Notes under the pieces: model-generated
What the model was told of the DNA's origin: nothing
Seen by the model: the letters and a program-made list of their open reading frames with translations, nothing else
The model's database searches: none
NCBI GenBank assembly: GCA_030017955.1
Contig: JASEGR010000021.1
Span: forward strand, 1-40,474
Source of the DNA: Candidatus Eisenbacteria bacterium
GTDB taxonomy: Bacteria > Eisenbacteria > RBG-16-71-46 > JASEGR01
Length of the DNA: 40,474 nucleotides
Direction of reading: 5' to 3'
Made by a program: the position numbers and the translations under genes
Shown here: positions 9,832-15,485 of the stretch, one piece after another
Position numbering within the stretch: the first letter of the stretch is position 1
Layout of the letters: each line of letters opens with the position of its first letter

Positions 9832-10626
9832 CTAGTATTCATCATCGAGCTTTATCTCGATTCTTTCAATTGCGGTTGATTTTCCCGAAACTCCGTCAAC
9901 GGAAATGAAGACAGCATTCAATCTCAGATCATCCGTGGCGGGTTCAAATCTTTCCGGAAGCTGTGTCAGGAAGCGGCGGATTGCCATTTCTTTCTTGACC
10001 CCGATGACCGAATCAAATGGCCCCGTCATGCCGGCATCGGTGATGTACGCAGTTCCGTTGGGCAGTATTCTTTCGTCCGCCGTCTGCACATGGGTATGAG
10101 TGCCGATGACTGCGCTGACCTTTCCGTCCAGGAACCAGCCCAACGCGGTTTTCTCCGAAGTCGCCTCGCCGTGGAAATCAATGACTATTGTTTGCGTCTT
10201 GTCTCTGAAGAATTCAAGAGTGGAAAGAGCGACCCTGAAGGGACAGTCAACCTCTCTTATGAACGTTCTGCCGAGAAGATTCATGACGCCAACTGGCTTC
10301 TTGTTTCGCGCAGTGAAAACACCTGCCCCCGGGCCGGGCACGCCGGGCGGATAGTTTGCAGGCCTGATCACTCTCTGATCATTTCCCAAAAGCTGGAAGA
10401 CTTCTTTCTTGTCCCAAAGGTGGTTCCCACCAGTTATGACATCCACTCCGGATTGAAAGAAGAGCGATGCAATCTCAGGCGTGAGGCCTTTTCCGGCAGC
10501 GGCATTTTCGCCGTTGGCTATGCAGAAATCGACACCGTTCTTCGCTATGAACGTAGGAAGAATTGCGGAGAGGACGTTTCTACCCGGTTTTCCAAACACA
10601 TCAGCAACGAAAAGGATTTTCGTCAC
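9832..10626 (-). CDS. ymdB: YmdB-family metallophosphoesterase
   Basis: This is a 264-residue calcineurin-like phosphoesterase of the TIGR00282/YmdB family. Bacillus YmdB hydrolyses cyclic nucleotides in vitro and affects biofilm and motility decisions. Metal-binding residues are visible: Asp9 in [10 protein letters not shown], Glu40-Asn41 in [10 protein letters not shown], Asn68-His69 in GGNHLWD, the His in [11 protein letters not shown] and the pair in [11 protein letters not shown]. It starts at a GTG that overlaps the TGA stop of rny (GTGA). The rny-ymdB pairing matches Firmicutes and many candidate phyla, which supports a joint role in RNA turnover or signalling. Confidence 0.93.
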
Positions 10627-12197
10627 CGAGCGTACTCCACTGCTCTCATCTCCCTTATCACAACGACTTTTATCTGACCCGGGTACTCAAGCTCCCTTTC
10701 AACCTTGCGGGCAATGTCTGCAGCAAGAAGCGTCGCCTTCGAATCGTCAACCTCCTTGTGCTCGACCATTATCCTTATCTCCCGCCCTGCCTGTATAGCA
10801 TAGGCCTTCTCCACGCCCGGGAAAGAGTCAGCTATTCTTTCGAGCTTCTCGAGCCGTTTGACGTAAGTCTCAAGTGTCTCTCTTCTCGCCCCTGGTCTTG
10901 CCCCTGAAACAGCATCTGCCGCCGAGACAAGGACACTGAGAAGACTGTTAGTCGTGGCAGACCGGTCGTTGTGATGCTCTCCGACGGCGGCAAGTACCTC
11001 CTTGTCTTCACCGTACTTTGCCAGGTAGTCCATCCCAATCTGTGCGTGCGGTCCTTCGAATTCGTGAGTCATGCCTTTTCCAATGTCGTGCAGAAGCCCT
11101 GCTCTCTTGGCGAGGTCGATGTCCATCGAAAGCTCGGCAGCCATCATGCCGGCGAGATAGGCAACTTCCTTTGAATGCTCCAGCACGTTTTGACCATAGC
11201 TCGTTCTGTACCTGAGCTTTCCGAGAAGCTTTATTACTTCGGGATGAAGACCATGAATTCCGACATCGAGACTGGTTTGCTCGCCTATCTCTCTTATCTG
11301 ATCCTCGATCTCCTTCCATGCCTTGTCCACGATTTCCTCTATTCTGCTGGGATGAATCCGCCCGTCGGCAATCAACCTCTCAAGCGATATTTTTGCGACC
11401 TCGCGTCTGACCGGGTCAAACCCCGAAAGAATAACCGCCTCAGGCGTATCATCAATTATCACGTCAACCCCGGTAGCAGTCTCAAATGCGCGGATGTTCC
11501 GTCCCTCCCTGCCGATGATCCTTCCCTTCATCTCTTCATTCGGAAGCGAGACAACCGAGACAGTCGTCTCGGCTACGTGTTCGGACGCGCACCGCTGGAT
11601 GGCAAGGGTGATTACCTTCTTTGCTTCTTTCTCGGCTGTCCGGAGGGCGCTCTCCTTTATCTCGGCTATGAGCTTTGCGGCCTCATGCCGGGCCTCGCTC
11701 TCGAGGTTCTGCATAAGGAGCTCCTTCGCTTCCTGGGAGCTCATCCCCGCAATCTTCTCAAGCCTCGTGTTCTGTTCCTGGATAAGCACATTCAGGTCGT
11801 GCGCTCTCTCTTCGAGTACCTTGTCCTTGTTGGTAAGGTCCCTTTCAAGCCTCCTCAAATCCCTTTCCTTCTTGTCAAGCAGGTCAACCTTTCTGTTTAG
11901 ATTGACCTCCCTTTCCTGGTTCTTCCTATCCCTTCCCTGGAGCTCGAGTCTGACACCCTGAGTCTCTTTTTCAAATTCTGCTCTTGCCTTGTACCATTCA
12001 TCCTTGGCCTCGAGAATTGCGCTTTTCTTCTGAGTCTCGGCCTCCTTCTGCGCTTCTCTGAGAATCTTCTCGGCCAGTTGTTCGGCATTAACAACCTTGC
12101 TTTCGCCCAGTTTCCTGCTTGTGTACCAGCCGACAAAAAACATTGCGATCGCAATTCCAACGCCGGCGAGTGTGTAAAGTACTATCGCTAGATCCAT
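10623..12197 (-). CDS. rny: ribonuclease Y
   Basis: RNase Y is a membrane-anchored endoribonuclease that starts mRNA decay. The 524-residue protein has an N-terminal transmembrane helix (about 4-25). A long charged coiled coil rich in Glu, Lys and Arg spans about 35-200. A KH domain ([15 protein letters not shown], about 225-285) and an HD domain ([16 protein letters not shown] and LLHDIGKG, about 340-430) follow. A strong GAGGAGGAG ribosome site lies just before the ATG. The leader contains a perfect 8-bp hairpin and, further upstream, the 6S RNA candidate. It overlaps ymdB by four bases. Confidence 0.97.
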
Positions 12198-12214
12198 CTT
12201 CTCCTCCTCACCTC

Positions 12215-12237
12215 TAGACCGGAATCTAACCGGTCTA
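12215..12237 (-). promoter_or_regulatory. perfect hairpin in the rny leader
   Basis: The arms tagaccgg (12215-12222) and ccggtcta (12230-12237) pair perfectly over eight bases with a seven-base loop. The hairpin lies between the 6S RNA candidate and the rny ribosome-binding site, 18 bases before the ATG. No U-tract follows, so it is more likely an mRNA 5' structure or an operator than a terminator. RNase Y controlling its own message is a speculation. Confidence 0.45.
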
Positions 12238-12250
12238 ATCTATTAAAAAA

Positions 12251-12430
12251 ATTCCCTACCTTAATGCCGTGTGGCCGAGACTTTTGAACCTGAAAGTTTC
12301 AGGTGGGCGTCTTCCTGAGCGGTTCGTGCCTCCCGCTTGCGCGGGATTCCACTACGCGCTCAATGGTTGACTCCCGTAGAAAAGATGTTGACTCAAAAAT
12401 GTCTAGACCATCACCAACACGGTAGGGAAT
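12251..12430 (-). ncRNA. ssrS: 6S RNA (RNA polymerase regulator) candidate
   Basis: Between zapA and rny lies a non-coding RNA-like stretch of 180 bases. Its ends, ATTCCCTACC (minus strand, from 12430) and GGTAGGGAAT (ending 12251), pair perfectly over ten bases. The 3' strand runs straight into TTTTTT, so the closing stem can double as an intrinsic terminator. The 3' half contains a CACCTGAAACTTTCAGGTTCAA-like hairpin, and the centre has GGAATCCCGC..GCGGGAGGC. This recalls the closing stem, central bubble and 3' hairpin of 6S RNA. Position immediately downstream of zapA is the classic location of ssrS. Bacterial 6S RNA mimics an open promoter and binds sigma-70 holoenzyme. Exact ends are inferred from the terminal pairing. 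Confidence 0.85.
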
Positions 12431-12432
12431 CT

Positions 12433-12753
12433 TTACCTAGTATCGGCGGATTCCTCAGATTGTTTGCCGGAATTTCCTCCTTGTAATGGGCCAGCTCTGT
12501 TTGAAACCTTCTCCAGAGTTGAGACTAGCTTCTCGGTCATCTCCCCGACTTGAAACAGTTCTCCCGCTATATTCATCGAGGCCAGGACTGCCACCTTGTG
12601 CAGAGGGAATGTGCGGTATTTTTCCGCGCTTTCCTTCATCTTCTTATCCACATATTCTGCAATCCTTGCAACGTAGTCAGGGTCACCTTCGCCCTTCAAT
12701 GGGTATTCTTCACCGAAAATGCTGACCTTGAAGCTCGCTTTCTCAGTGGCCAT
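12433..12753 (-). CDS. zapA: cell division protein ZapA
   Basis: ZapA binds FtsZ and promotes bundling of protofilaments at the Z-ring. The 106-residue protein shows the family N-terminus FKVSIFGEEYPLKGEGDPDYVARIAEYVDKKM. The helix HKVAVLASMNIAGELFQV and a C-terminal coiled coil (TEKLVSTLEKVSNRA) follow. It has an ATG start and a hydrophilic Ser/Gly/Glu-rich tail. It lies downstream of pheT and the coiled-coil gene and directly upstream of the 6S RNA candidate, whose transcript may be processed from or read separately from the zapA mRNA. Confidence 0.92.
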   Translation of the reverse strand: MATEKASFKVSIFGEEYPLKGEGDPDYVARIAEYVDKKMKESAEKYRTFPLHKVAVLASMNIAGELFQVGEMTEKLVSTLEKVSNRAGPLQGGNSGKQSEESADTR

Positions 12754-12813
12754 TACCTTCGACTCAATCTTTGGATTTTCAAGTTTCCCTACCGCTGATT
12801 ATCTTTCCCGTGC

Positions 12814-13086
12814 TCAAACAACAGTGTTCAGCTTCTTAAGAATCTCTTCCAATCTTCTCAACAAGGCCTTACGCTCGGCAAGAAGCGTATTCGTCACCTT
12901 GCTCATCTTTTGAAAATCACTGCTCGTAATACCGGAGCCCTCCTTGCTTGTCTTTTTCCTGCTCCTTAAGTCTACTTGAAGCTGCTTTACGCTTTCCGTG
13001 AGTCTTCTGTTATCCTGAACAAGTTTCTCTGCTAAATCAATCGCTCTTACTACCCTCTCATCGAGCTTTTCAACTTCTATCGACAT
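12814..13086 (-). CDS. small coiled-coil protein between pheT and zapA
   Basis: This 90-residue protein is almost entirely helical. Heptad-like spacing of Leu, Val and Ile runs through 1-42 (VEKLDERVVRAIDLAEKLV, RRLTESVKQLQ) and 58-88 (MSKVTNTLLAERKALLRRLEEILKKL). A charged linker (RSRKKTSKEGSG) breaks it in the middle. No catalytic motif is present. It lies 60 bases upstream of zapA and 23 bases after pheT. Small coiled-coil genes in this spot are often annotated as hypothetical or ZapB-like. I infer, without proof, a divisome or Z-ring accessory role. Confidence 0.75.
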   Translation of the reverse strand: MSIEVEKLDERVVRAIDLAEKLVQDNRRLTESVKQLQVDLRSRKKTSKEGSGITSSDFQKMSKVTNTLLAERKALLRRLEEILKKLNTVV

Positions 13087-13109
13087 CGCGCTTCTGCTTT
13101 CGCCTTCAA

Positions 13110-15485
13110 TCAGGAATGAGCAGCCCTAAGCACTGCTCCCTTCCTATCCCTCAGCTCTTTTACGATCCTCTCAACTTCAGAGTTCGCATCCTCATCTGAA
13201 AGAGTTCTTTCATTTGACCTGAAAAAAAGTGAATATGCAAGACTTTTCTTTCCCTTCGGTATCTCCTTTCCTTCGTATACGTCAAAAAGCTTGAGTTCTT
13301 TCAGGTAATTTCCCCCGCTTAGGCGTATCGTCTCTCTCAGTTCCGCCTCCGCAATGCCGGTTTCCACAATGATCGAAATGTCTCTCTTGATCCCGGGGAA
13401 CCTGGGCGGTTCAAAGTACTCCCTGATCCCCCTTGAAAGGCCCATCAATTGGTCAACATCGAGCTCCCCGACGTAAACACCCGGAACCGAATCGACAACC
13501 TGCGGCTCAACCTCTCCCAGGAATCCCAATTCAGCCCCAGCCGCCGAGAATCCGCATGAAGAACCTTTTCTAAATCCTTTCTTATCATAACAGAACGTAT
13601 GCGGAGTGTCAACTCTCAACTCCGACAGAAGCACGCCAACTATCCCCTTTGCGTCGAAGATGTCAACTTTTCCGCCGGTAGGATCCCACCTGTCCGGCAC
13701 TCTCTCGCCGGTGATGCCGAATGTGAGCACAAACTTCTCCTCGGGCGGTGCTCCGCGCTTCTTCGTGAACAATTTCCCAAGCTCGAAAACCCTGATGGAT
13801 TGGCCGCCCCTTCTCAGATTCCTCACGATGGTCTGAGTTACTCCACACATGAGAGTAGGTCTCAGGTACGCGGAGCTTGAGCTCAGCGGATTGAGGACCT
13901 TGACCAGATCATCTTTCTCGAATCCGAACAGAGTGGGGCTCTCCTCATCGATGAGGCAGTTTGTCAATATCTCTGCGAAGCCAAGCCCGACCATGAACTC
14001 CCTCAGTCTGTTGTTGAACTCGTCGGTGCTGTTCTTTCTGCCGGGGAGACCGCTCAAGTTCCCCAGAGTTGAGGGAAGTTTGCCGTATCCATAAGAGCGG
14101 GCCACTTCCTCGATGAGGTCGGCTTCTTCGTTTATGTCGTACCTGAAGCTTGGAACAGATGTTTTGATTCTCTTCCCGTCAATCGCAGGCGAAAATCCAA
14201 GCGAATCGAGAATCGACAGGGTCTCACGGACTTCCGGAGACGTTCCCAACATTGAGTCAAGCCTGCCCATATCAAGAAAAACCGTCTTACTTTCGTGGGG
14301 CTTATCACCGACGATTGAAATCGCATCGAGCGGAGTGCCTGCTCCAAGCTCTCCGAGCAGACCTCTCACAAGAAGGAGCGCAGGCACTACACCTTCCTGG
14401 TCAACGCCTCTTGAGAATCTCATGGATGCTTCAGATGAGAGCGCGAGGAGCTTCGAGCCCTTTCCCACTCTCCTTCTCTCGAAGAAAGCGCTTTCCAAGA
14501 GAATCTTCTTTGTGGAAGCTGTGACTTCGGATTCTTCACCGCCCATTATCCCGGCTATCGCGACCGGCTTCTCCGAATCAGCAATCACAAGGACGTCTTC
14601 GAACAGATTTCTTTCAACGCCATCAAGTGTCTTTATCTTTTCACCCTTTTTTGCTCTTCTCACAATGATCCCGCCGCTGAGCTTCTCCAGATCGAAAGCG
14701 TGGATCGGCTGTCCTCTCTCAAGAAGACAGTAGTTCGTCACATCGACAACACTGTTGATTGGCCTCATTCCGGAGAGCTCAAGTCTTCTCTGCATCCAGA
14801 AAGGAGACGGTGTCACCTTGATATTTTCCACAATTGCCGCGGCATATCTGGGGCAGCCTTCGGTGTCCTCGACACGAATCGGGAAGTCGAGCTTCGGAAG
14901 GGATGCTTTCCGCTCATCTTTCTTCTTCCACTTCGCAAATCCGGAGGCAACAACTTCCCTGGCAATGCCAAGGACGCAGAGACAGTCGGCCCTGTCGTGC
15001 GGGATATCAACTTCAAGAACAGTATCGTCGAGCCCCAGCGCTTCTCCCAGAGGAGTCCCTTTCTCGAGCTCAGACGGCAGCTCGAGAATGCCCTCGCCAT
15101 CGCTTGAGATTTCGAGCTCAAGAGGCGAGCAGAGCATTCCCTCCGAGCGAATTCCCCTGAGCGTGATGGACTCGATCTTTCTTCCGCCTGGCAGGAACGA
15201 GCCGGGCACTGCAACCGGAACCGTCATGCCAGGTTTCACGTTCGTCGCTCCGCAGACTATCCTGAGCCCGGAGCTCCCAACATCGACACTGCAGACTATG
15301 AGGTTCCCTGCCGAGGGATGCTTCTCAACTGAGAGCACTTTTCCGACAACAATACTCTTACCGCTCCATGTGATTTTCTCCGATGAGTCAACGAGAAGAC
15401 CTCTCTCACTTAGGATGCGGGGCAGTTCCTGAGGAGCGGAATTGAATTCGACTAGAGATCCAAGCCAGCTTACTACGAGCTTCAC
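13110..15485 (-). CDS. pheT: phenylalanyl-tRNA synthetase beta chain
   Basis: This is the editing and tRNA-binding subunit of the (alpha-beta)2 synthetase that charges tRNA-Phe. The 791-residue protein has an N-terminal OB/EMAPII-like tRNA-binding domain (VVGKVLSVEKHPSAGNLIVC, about 45-150). The B3/B4 editing domain (about 210-370: MRPINSVVDVTNYCLLERGQPIHAFD), B5 domain (about 395-470) and catalytic-like core follow. The C-terminal FDX-ACB anticodon-binding domain (FPGIKRDISII) starts at about 695. It starts at a GTG and lies 61 bases after pheS, with which it forms the usual operon. Confidence 0.97.
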   Translation of the reverse strand: MKLVVSWLGSLVEFNSAPQELPRILSERGLLVDSSEKITWSGKSIVVGKVLSVEKHPSAGNLIVCSVDVGSSGLRIVCGATNVKPGMTVPVAVPGSFLPGGRKIESITLRGIRSEGMLCSPLELEISSDGEGILELPSELEKGTPLGEALGLDDTVLEVDIPHDRADCLCVLGIAREVVASGFAKWKKKDERKASLPKLDFPIRVEDTEGCPRYAAAIVENIKVTPSPFWMQRRLELSGMRPINSVVDVTNYCLLERGQPIHAFDLEKLSGGIIVRRAKKGEKIKTLDGVERNLFEDVLVIADSEKPVAIAGIMGGEESEVTASTKKILLESAFFERRRVGKGSKLLALSSEASMRFSRGVDQEGVVPALLLVRGLLGELGAGTPLDAISIVGDKPHESKTVFLDMGRLDSMLGTSPEVRETLSILDSLGFSPAIDGKRIKTSVPSFRYDINEEADLIEEVARSYGYGKLPSTLGNLSGLPGRKNSTDEFNNRLREFMVGLGFAEILTNCLIDEESPTLFGFEKDDLVKVLNPLSSSSAYLRPTLMCGVTQTIVRNLRRGGQSIRVFELGKLFTKKRGAPPEEKFVLTFGITGERVPDRWDPTGGKVDIFDAKGIVGVLLSELRVDTPHTFCYDKKGFRKGSSCGFSAAGAELGFLGEVEPQVVDSVPGVYVGELDVDQLMGLSRGIREYFEPPRFPGIKRDISIIVETGIAEAELRETIRLSGGNYLKELKLFDVYEGKEIPKGKKSLAYSLFFRSNERTLSDEDANSEVERIVKELRDRKGAVLRAAHS

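Follow-up and report, generated by a model that had tools for sequence, protein, structure and literature searches.

A 6S RNA gene in Eisenbacteria and its conserved gene neighbourhood between zapA and rny

The window, by which we mean the whole stretch of 40,474 nucleotides of a Candidatus Eisenbacteria contig that was analysed, carries on its minus strand a co-directional cluster in the order pheS-pheT-ORF-zapA-6S-rny-ymdB-folD. The central member of this cluster is a gene for 6S (SsrS) RNA, a widespread bacterial RNA that restrains the cell's main transcribing enzyme (RNA polymerase). The features with which we are concerned are the following, given in the order in which they are met along the cluster:

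12814-13086, minus strand: 90-aa ORF between pheT and zapA, assigned by its position alone to the place of the proteobacterial zapB
12433-12753, minus strand: zapA, cell division protein, whose stop codon lies 1 nt before the 6S 5' end (PF05164, 60.2 bits)
12249-12431, minus strand: 6S (SsrS) RNA gene (RF00013, 86.5 bits; class-tuned model R1, 146.2 bits, with the window itself among the 39 training sequences of R1; fold z -7.5)
12421-12431, minus strand: closing stem, 5' strand (pairing in the MFE fold; homologous helix in 40 sequences)
12387-12400, plus strand: predicted product RNA (pRNA), 5'-GUUGACUCAAAAAU, whose template would be the 5' side of the central bubble (by analogy)
12288-12304, minus strand: hairpin (ACCTGAA/TTCAGGT) in the 3' strand of the central region (MFE fold, consensus of alignment A1, Rfam consensus)
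12250-12260, minus strand: closing stem, 3' strand, the last pair being G-U (read directly, MFE fold, alignment)
12245-12250, minus strand: U-tract immediately behind the ten-base stem, where transcription presumably ends (read directly; recurrence of T-runs)
12215-12237, minus strand: perfect 8-bp hairpin TAGACCGG-TTAGATT-CCGGTCTA in the rny leader (read directly)
10623-12197, minus strand: rny, RNase Y, 51 nt from the 6S 3' end (PF12072, 191.3 bits)
9832-10626, minus strand: ymdB (PF13277, 353 bits)

The 90-aa ORF has no Pfam match at E<=0.001, and ORFs weakly similar to it occupy the same place in some relatives. The 8-bp hairpin occupies part of the 51-nt rny leader, downstream of the U-tract and just before the ribosome-binding site.

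An earlier note on this DNA, which gave no strand, had proposed a 6S RNA at 12251-12430 and named a covariance search with the Rfam family RF00013 as the check. That search bears the proposal out, with a match at 12249-12431 on the minus strand, which is the reading strand of the RNA, at 86.5 bits against a cut-off of 46.4 (E 6.6e-16); the match spans the whole model (positions 1-187 of 187) and delimits an RNA of 183 nt (12431-12249). Scanning the whole window with all Rfam families yielded four matches, namely three tRNAs and the 6S RNA, and the latter is also the sole RF00013 match in the window's own genome. The position just downstream of zapA, on which the proposal had leaned, is the known ssrS location, as in the E. 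coli order zapA-ssrS-fau, and the placement between divisome and RNA-decay genes holds too, with the protein family matches of zapA and RNase Y flanking the RNA. The stretch at 12249-12431 is, to near certainty, a genuine 6S (SsrS) RNA gene of this Eisenbacteria genome; as a member of its family the RNA is unremarkable, and the lineage is little studied.

The fold is that of the family. The minus strand at 12240-12432 has an MFE of -82.4 kcal/mol, whereas 200 dinucleotide shuffles of the same segment averaged -50.1 (sd 4.3) and none was as low (0/200; z -7.5); the plus strand at 12251-12430 folds less well (z -5.3). The MFE and centroid folds are almost the same and describe a rod with a closing stem, a large central bubble, an apical stem, and a terminal loop. 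The closing stem consists of ten perfect pairs, five of them G-C, between ATTCCCTACC (12430-12421) and GGTAGGGAAT (12260-12251), and both this stem and the U-tract right after its 3' strand can be read in the sequence, as had been noted before. Across 40 sequences the closing helix (helix 1) is paired in 97.5% of cells, with changes on both sides in three of its six pairs. Also present is the hairpin previously remarked upon in the 3' part, ACCTGAAACTTTCAGGT at 12304-12288 with the arms ACCTGAAA and TTTCAGGT, which is a standard 6S element; its counterpart in the A1 consensus, CACCTGG..CCAGGTTCAA, is conserved in the class and lies at the same place in the Rfam consensus. PMC8414754 describes a hairpin opposite the 5' central bulge in the 6S RNAs of LAB and B. 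subtilis, of which the hairpin at 12288-12304 is the counterpart.

Covariation among relatives was evaluated on the alignment A1, whose 40 rows are Eisenbacteria hits that include the doubtful or second hits L113, L117, and L120 and exclude L123. The RNAalifold structure of A1 has 34 pairs, 22 of which changed on both sides, and it contains the closing, inner, and clamp helices, with the distal apical part being left without predicted pairs. Consensus pairing is found in 93.1% of cells against 38-49% in slid controls, a comparison that favours the A1 structure because it was derived from the same alignment; none of 500 shuffles matches the structure on any of five covariation measures.

For the central bubble, the start site of the E. 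coli 6S pRNA was used to place the pRNA start in the window. Together with the alignment to the Rfam consensus and the pattern of GG at positions 4/5 that is reported for pRNAs in PMC8414754, this analogy predicts a pRNA that starts opposite 12387 as GUUGACUC. The template CC, which corresponds to GG in the pRNA, is kept in 37 of the 40 A1 rows; the window has TC, and its pRNA would therefore carry GA, not the usual GG, at positions 4/5.

The 3' end of the RNA was compared with that of 6S genes in other phyla, for which we used the best-scoring loci, about 30 each out of 70 matches in Krumholzibacteriota (the phylum of a MAG with that title), 69 in the G051 phylum (that of genome G051), 54 in Desulfobacterota (here the phylum of a Desulfobacterales MAG), and 67 in Bacillota (the phylum of a Paenibacillus), with L038, L044, and L002 as extra loci beyond these sets, the first two of which come from genomes reached through rny. 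In the window, six further U (12250-12245) follow straight after the ten-base stem. Four of them could pair with GAAA at 12431-12434 to give 14 contiguous pairs, an extension that requires a transcript starting upstream and including the three A just before the RNA, and for this reason the window's tract could be stem and not tail. Among 36 Eisenbacteria loci the U-tract mostly does not continue the stem, with a mean of 1.9 extra contiguous pairs. The T fraction of the first six nucleotides past the stem is 0.64 in Eisenbacteria, as against 0.13-0.25 in neighbouring 6-nt steps, and at the best-scoring loci of the other phyla it ranges from 0.46 in Desulfobacterota through 0.57 in Krumholzibacteriota and 0.61 in Bacillota to 0.64 in the G051 phylum; a small part of this T excess is explained by the U-rich end (gucu) of the Rfam consensus. 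Runs of at least four T within the 14 nt around the stem end occur at 22/37 Eisenbacteria loci (background 0.5%) and, among the best-scoring loci, at 17/32 in Krumholzibacteriota (background 2.2%), 10/29 in the G051 phylum (9.9%), 10/30 in Desulfobacterota (5.8%), and 17/30 in Bacillota (7.6%). When each U-tract is set against local windows, p<=0.05 is reached at 26/37 Eisenbacteria loci (the tract being weaker in families f8, 8/16, and f10, 1/2, and absent in f7, 0/2), as well as at 16/32 and 12/29 best-scoring loci of Krumholzibacteriota and the G051 phylum, respectively, the 37 Eisenbacteria loci being those left once L113, L117, L120, and L123 are excluded. Since the same feature is present in the 6S genes of Bacillota, it is not special to Eisenbacteria: the U-tract after the closing stem is a general, terminator-like trait of 6S genes.

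How far this trait amounts to a terminator was the question left by the earlier note, according to which the closing stem doubles as one. What stands of that claim is the stem of ten perfect pairs, five of them G-C, with a U6 tract directly behind it, an arrangement that recurs in relatives; what does not stand is the classical form, as the loop, instead of the short 3-8 nt of an intrinsic terminator, is the rest of the 6S RNA (~160 nt), and a simple terminator scan with the classical definition does not list the closing stem and U-tract. The sequence is thus only consistent with an element that would resemble an intrinsic terminator save for its loop length, and that is not a classical one. 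We lean towards termination of 6S transcription at the closing stem as the somewhat likelier course of events: transcripts, whether they start upstream or at a local promoter that escaped detection, would most likely end at the U-tract and give the 6S 3' end directly, and read-through past it would supply rny.

A side observation concerns family f8, where the 5' stem strand recurs (TCCCTGCC-like) just past the 3' strand at several loci, e.g., L021, L024, L028, L114, and L115, and this second copy could pair with the 3' strand in place of the first. With the arm in the first register, 1/16 f8 loci reached p<=0.05; with the arm moved by one base and L023 excluded, 8/15 f8 loci did so (median p 0.025), with little elsewhere, in a test that was made post hoc, after the first result had been seen, and on related loci, for which reasons the second copy counts only as a noticed feature. 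Local folds around it mostly have modest z-scores, and in the window a second copy is not shown (p 0.14).

The 5' end presents a different picture. No sigma-70-like promoter was found in 11900-13300, and a comparative test, in which a weighted hexamer score for the 22 nt upstream of 6S was compared with the same locus, placed a -10-like hexamer just upstream at local p<=0.1 in 4/36 Eisenbacteria loci, which is no excess over the 10% expected. The same test gave about twice the chance frequency at the best-scoring loci of Krumholzibacteriota (7/31), the G051 phylum (6/29), and Desulfobacterota (6/30), and it was positive for E. coli (1/1). A promoter of its own at the 6S 5' end is not supported by the scan or by the comparative -10 test, which was negative in Eisenbacteria, and the gene may thus not be an independent transcription unit; a degenerate promoter, as can occur in GC-rich lineages, could nonetheless escape such tests.

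The lack of a promoter signal just upstream in Eisenbacteria leaves room for processing, in which an endonuclease, RNase E/G or RNase Y, would release the 6S RNA from a long transcript of zapA, 6S, and rny, and trimming would follow. We hold this to be a serious possibility, at somewhat less than an even chance. It fits with an RNA that starts 1 nt past the zapA stop codon, with a zapA-ssrS-ygfA order that matches E. coli, with RNase Y being encoded next door, and with an RNase E/G family gene (PF10150) in 13 of the 14 genomes examined, the window's own included. Processing alone, however, offers no explanation for a U-tract that is concentrated exactly at the 3' end of the stem and mostly does not continue it.

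The distribution of the gene was followed by Rfam searches at E<=0.001, with filters that lose some weak matches, which found 6S RNA in 41/59 genomes, the window's own included, and in 37/46 relatives of the same class, one of which (G004) is doubtful, because its match (locus L117) has neither zapA nor rny nearby and scores only 6.2 bits with the class-tuned covariance model. Three of the nine same-class genomes without an Rfam match (G011, G021, and G026, family f9) have zapA adjoining rny, and between these two genes the class-tuned model, built from 39 sequences of the Eisenbacteria class and two other phyla with two of them from f9 itself, identifies 6S genes that the Rfam search missed in all three (96.7, 72.4, and 76.0 bits, respectively):

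L262:3129-3313, L263:3128-3307, and L264:3120-3301, minus strand: f9 6S genes between zapA and rny (class-tuned model, 72-97 bits)

The other six genomes offered no complete junction for this search, three having no rny match, two a weak partial one, and one an rny at a contig end. Beyond the class, the Rfam 6S family is matched in 70/78 genomes of Krumholzibacteriota, 68/77 of the G051 phylum, 49/79 of Desulfobacterota, and 60/61 of Bacillota.

Several further matches were observed. Possible second 6S copies lie away from zapA and rny at L113 (G024) and L120 (G001), with Rfam scores of 57.3 and 45.7 bits, the latter below the cut-off, and class-model scores of 71.8 and 37.6 bits, neither locus being in the training set. 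A Bacteroidota-titled MAG (L138) has a sub-threshold match of 42.7 bits in a zapA-rny junction, with zapA ending 55 nt before it and the rny match starting 39 nt after it; the class model has no match there at E<=1. Weak 6S matches were also seen in two MAGs, one of Cloacimonetes (37.8 bits, 211 nt past zapA) and one of Syntrophaceae (20.7 bits, 9 nt past zapA). At seven rny loci with Zixiibacteriota titles (L037, L039-L041, L045, L079, and L081), the ORFs of zapA and rny lie 41-140 nt apart, with no 6S match.

The gene order around 6S recurs across these groups, in counts from which only L123 is excluded. Among the 40 Eisenbacteria hits, zapA lies upstream in 36, rny downstream in 35, and ymdB directly downstream in 2, and the four hits without zapA comprise three doubtful or second copies and one at a contig end. 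The best-scoring Krumholzibacteriota loci have zapA in 31/32, rny in 29/32, and ymdB in 3/32, with the one zapA miss lying 202 nt from a contig end. At the best-scoring loci of the G051 phylum (flanks <=1.5 kb), zapA is present in 30/30, rny in 20/30, and ygfA, the gene for 5-formyltetrahydrofolate cyclo-ligase (PF01812, 132.8 bits in the one tested), in 27/30. The best-scoring Desulfobacterota loci examined by tblastn have rny downstream in 30/30 (28/28 once L131 and L133, from genomes reached through rny, are removed), zapA in 25/30, and ygfA in 9/30. The same method matched no ygfA/fau after the 6S gene at any of the 40 Eisenbacteria or 32 best-scoring Krumholzibacteriota loci, and no zapA, rny, ymdB, or pheT at the 30 best-scoring Bacillota loci. 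Two of these Bacillota loci (L252 and L259) show ygfA just downstream of 6S, as in the proteobacterial order. At eight Krumholzibacteriota loci (L146, L147, L148, L153, L156, L163, L164, and L168), the zapA frame, as judged from ORFs, seems to end 21 nt inside the 6S gene, so that the codons for the end of ZapA would overlap the closing stem's 5' strand.

From this distribution, zapA-6S-(ygfA)-rny appears to be an inherited arrangement common to several phyla, and the simplest reading would be an inherited zapA-6S-ygfA-rny-ymdB order from which pieces have since been lost. The linkage to rny is not obligatory, because 6S stays beside ymdB in five genomes in which an RNase_Y_N match is found nowhere, and these genomes, four of which have an RNase E/G gene, likewise oppose a functional necessity of the 6S-rny neighbourhood.

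The position of the element, on the coding strand of rny and 51 nt ahead of that gene, and the frequency with which rny follows it, in 35/40 Eisenbacteria hits and at all 30 best-scoring Desulfobacterota loci examined, could also suggest a structured rny leader (an attenuator or riboswitch-like element) instead of a free 6S RNA. Such a leader is very improbable and we reject it as the main reading, as the element has the full-length architecture and score of 6S RNA, is kept with ymdB directly next to it in the five genomes without an RNase_Y_N match, and is separated from rny by ygfA in another phylum and in some Desulfobacterota. That the 6S match is a chance fold in DNA has a negligible probability and is refuted by the RF00013 E-value, the fold z-score, the covariation, and the conserved position in several phyla, with nothing found in its favour.

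Having identified the RNA as a 6S RNA, we can set the locus beside known systems. It shares with 6S/SsrS RNAs (RF00013; E. coli ssrS, B. subtilis 6S-1 and 6S-2) the length, the closing stem, a central bubble clamped by GGG/CCC, the apical stem, the 3' central hairpin, and the location after zapA. Compared with E. coli ssrS, the host lineage differs, the zapA stop codon is separated from the RNA by 1 nt rather than 41 nt, and the RNA is followed directly by rny, whereas E. coli has ygfA/fau. PMC7641849 reports zapB-zapA-ssrS-(fau)-EVE arrays in beta- and gammaproteobacteria, with which the window has in common a zapA immediately upstream on the same strand and a presumed co-transcription; in contrast to these arrays, it has rny-ymdB-folD after 6S and no ygfA/fau match. 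In the 6S genes of Bacillota, too, a T-rich tract comes after the closing stem (four or more T in a row at 17/30 best-scoring loci), but these genes differ in their surroundings, with no zapA, rny, ymdB, or pheT match at the 30 best-scoring loci, and those of LAB have rarA upstream, uspA downstream, and, in most species, a terminator downstream (PMC8414754). The 6S RNA of Aquifex aeolicus is annotated at pheT in a table entry of PMC4227106, and pheT is likewise upstream of 6S in the window.

The descriptions of 6S genomic settings that we found, in the portions of them accessible to us, deal mainly with Proteobacteria and Bacillota, and this literature, which does not extend to the main 6S surveys, does not name 6S adjoining rny. 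What seems new, as far as we are aware, is not the 6S RNA itself but the neighbourhood, in which the zapA-ssrS-ygfA order already known is connected with RNase Y, as zapA-6S-rny in Eisenbacteria and Krumholzibacteriota and as zapA-6S-ygfA-rny in the G051 phylum. The shared zapA-6S-(ygfA)-rny order provides a synteny handle for divergent 6S genes, and it gave the three that the Rfam search had missed.

As to function, the known behaviour of the family suggests that the rod-shaped RNA of ~183 nt would mimic an open promoter and bind the housekeeping RNA polymerase holoenzyme, from which it would be released once the polymerase has transcribed the central bubble into a short pRNA. A more speculative proposal, which we consider unlikely, is an ancient cis-linkage of transcription control with RNA decay, in which the closing stem of 6S would be a partial terminator before rny, RNase Y synthesis would need read-through past 6S, and the resulting mRNA would carry a 6S domain open to polymerase binding up to its removal by RNase Y or RNase E/G. 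Two B. subtilis studies state that polymerase binds full-length rny mRNA, in an interaction that its authors call species-specific (PMC11077062), and that RNase Y autoregulates via its own mRNA (PMC10303841). If the cis-linkage were true, the levels of 6S RNA, of free polymerase, and of RNase Y would be tied to one another, and the polymerase-rny mRNA binding of B. subtilis (PMC11077062) would gain a structural parallel at 6S-rny. The neighbourhood of zapA, 6S, and rny, conserved and functionally suggestive, offers a testable case for a link between the control of RNA polymerase and RNA decay.
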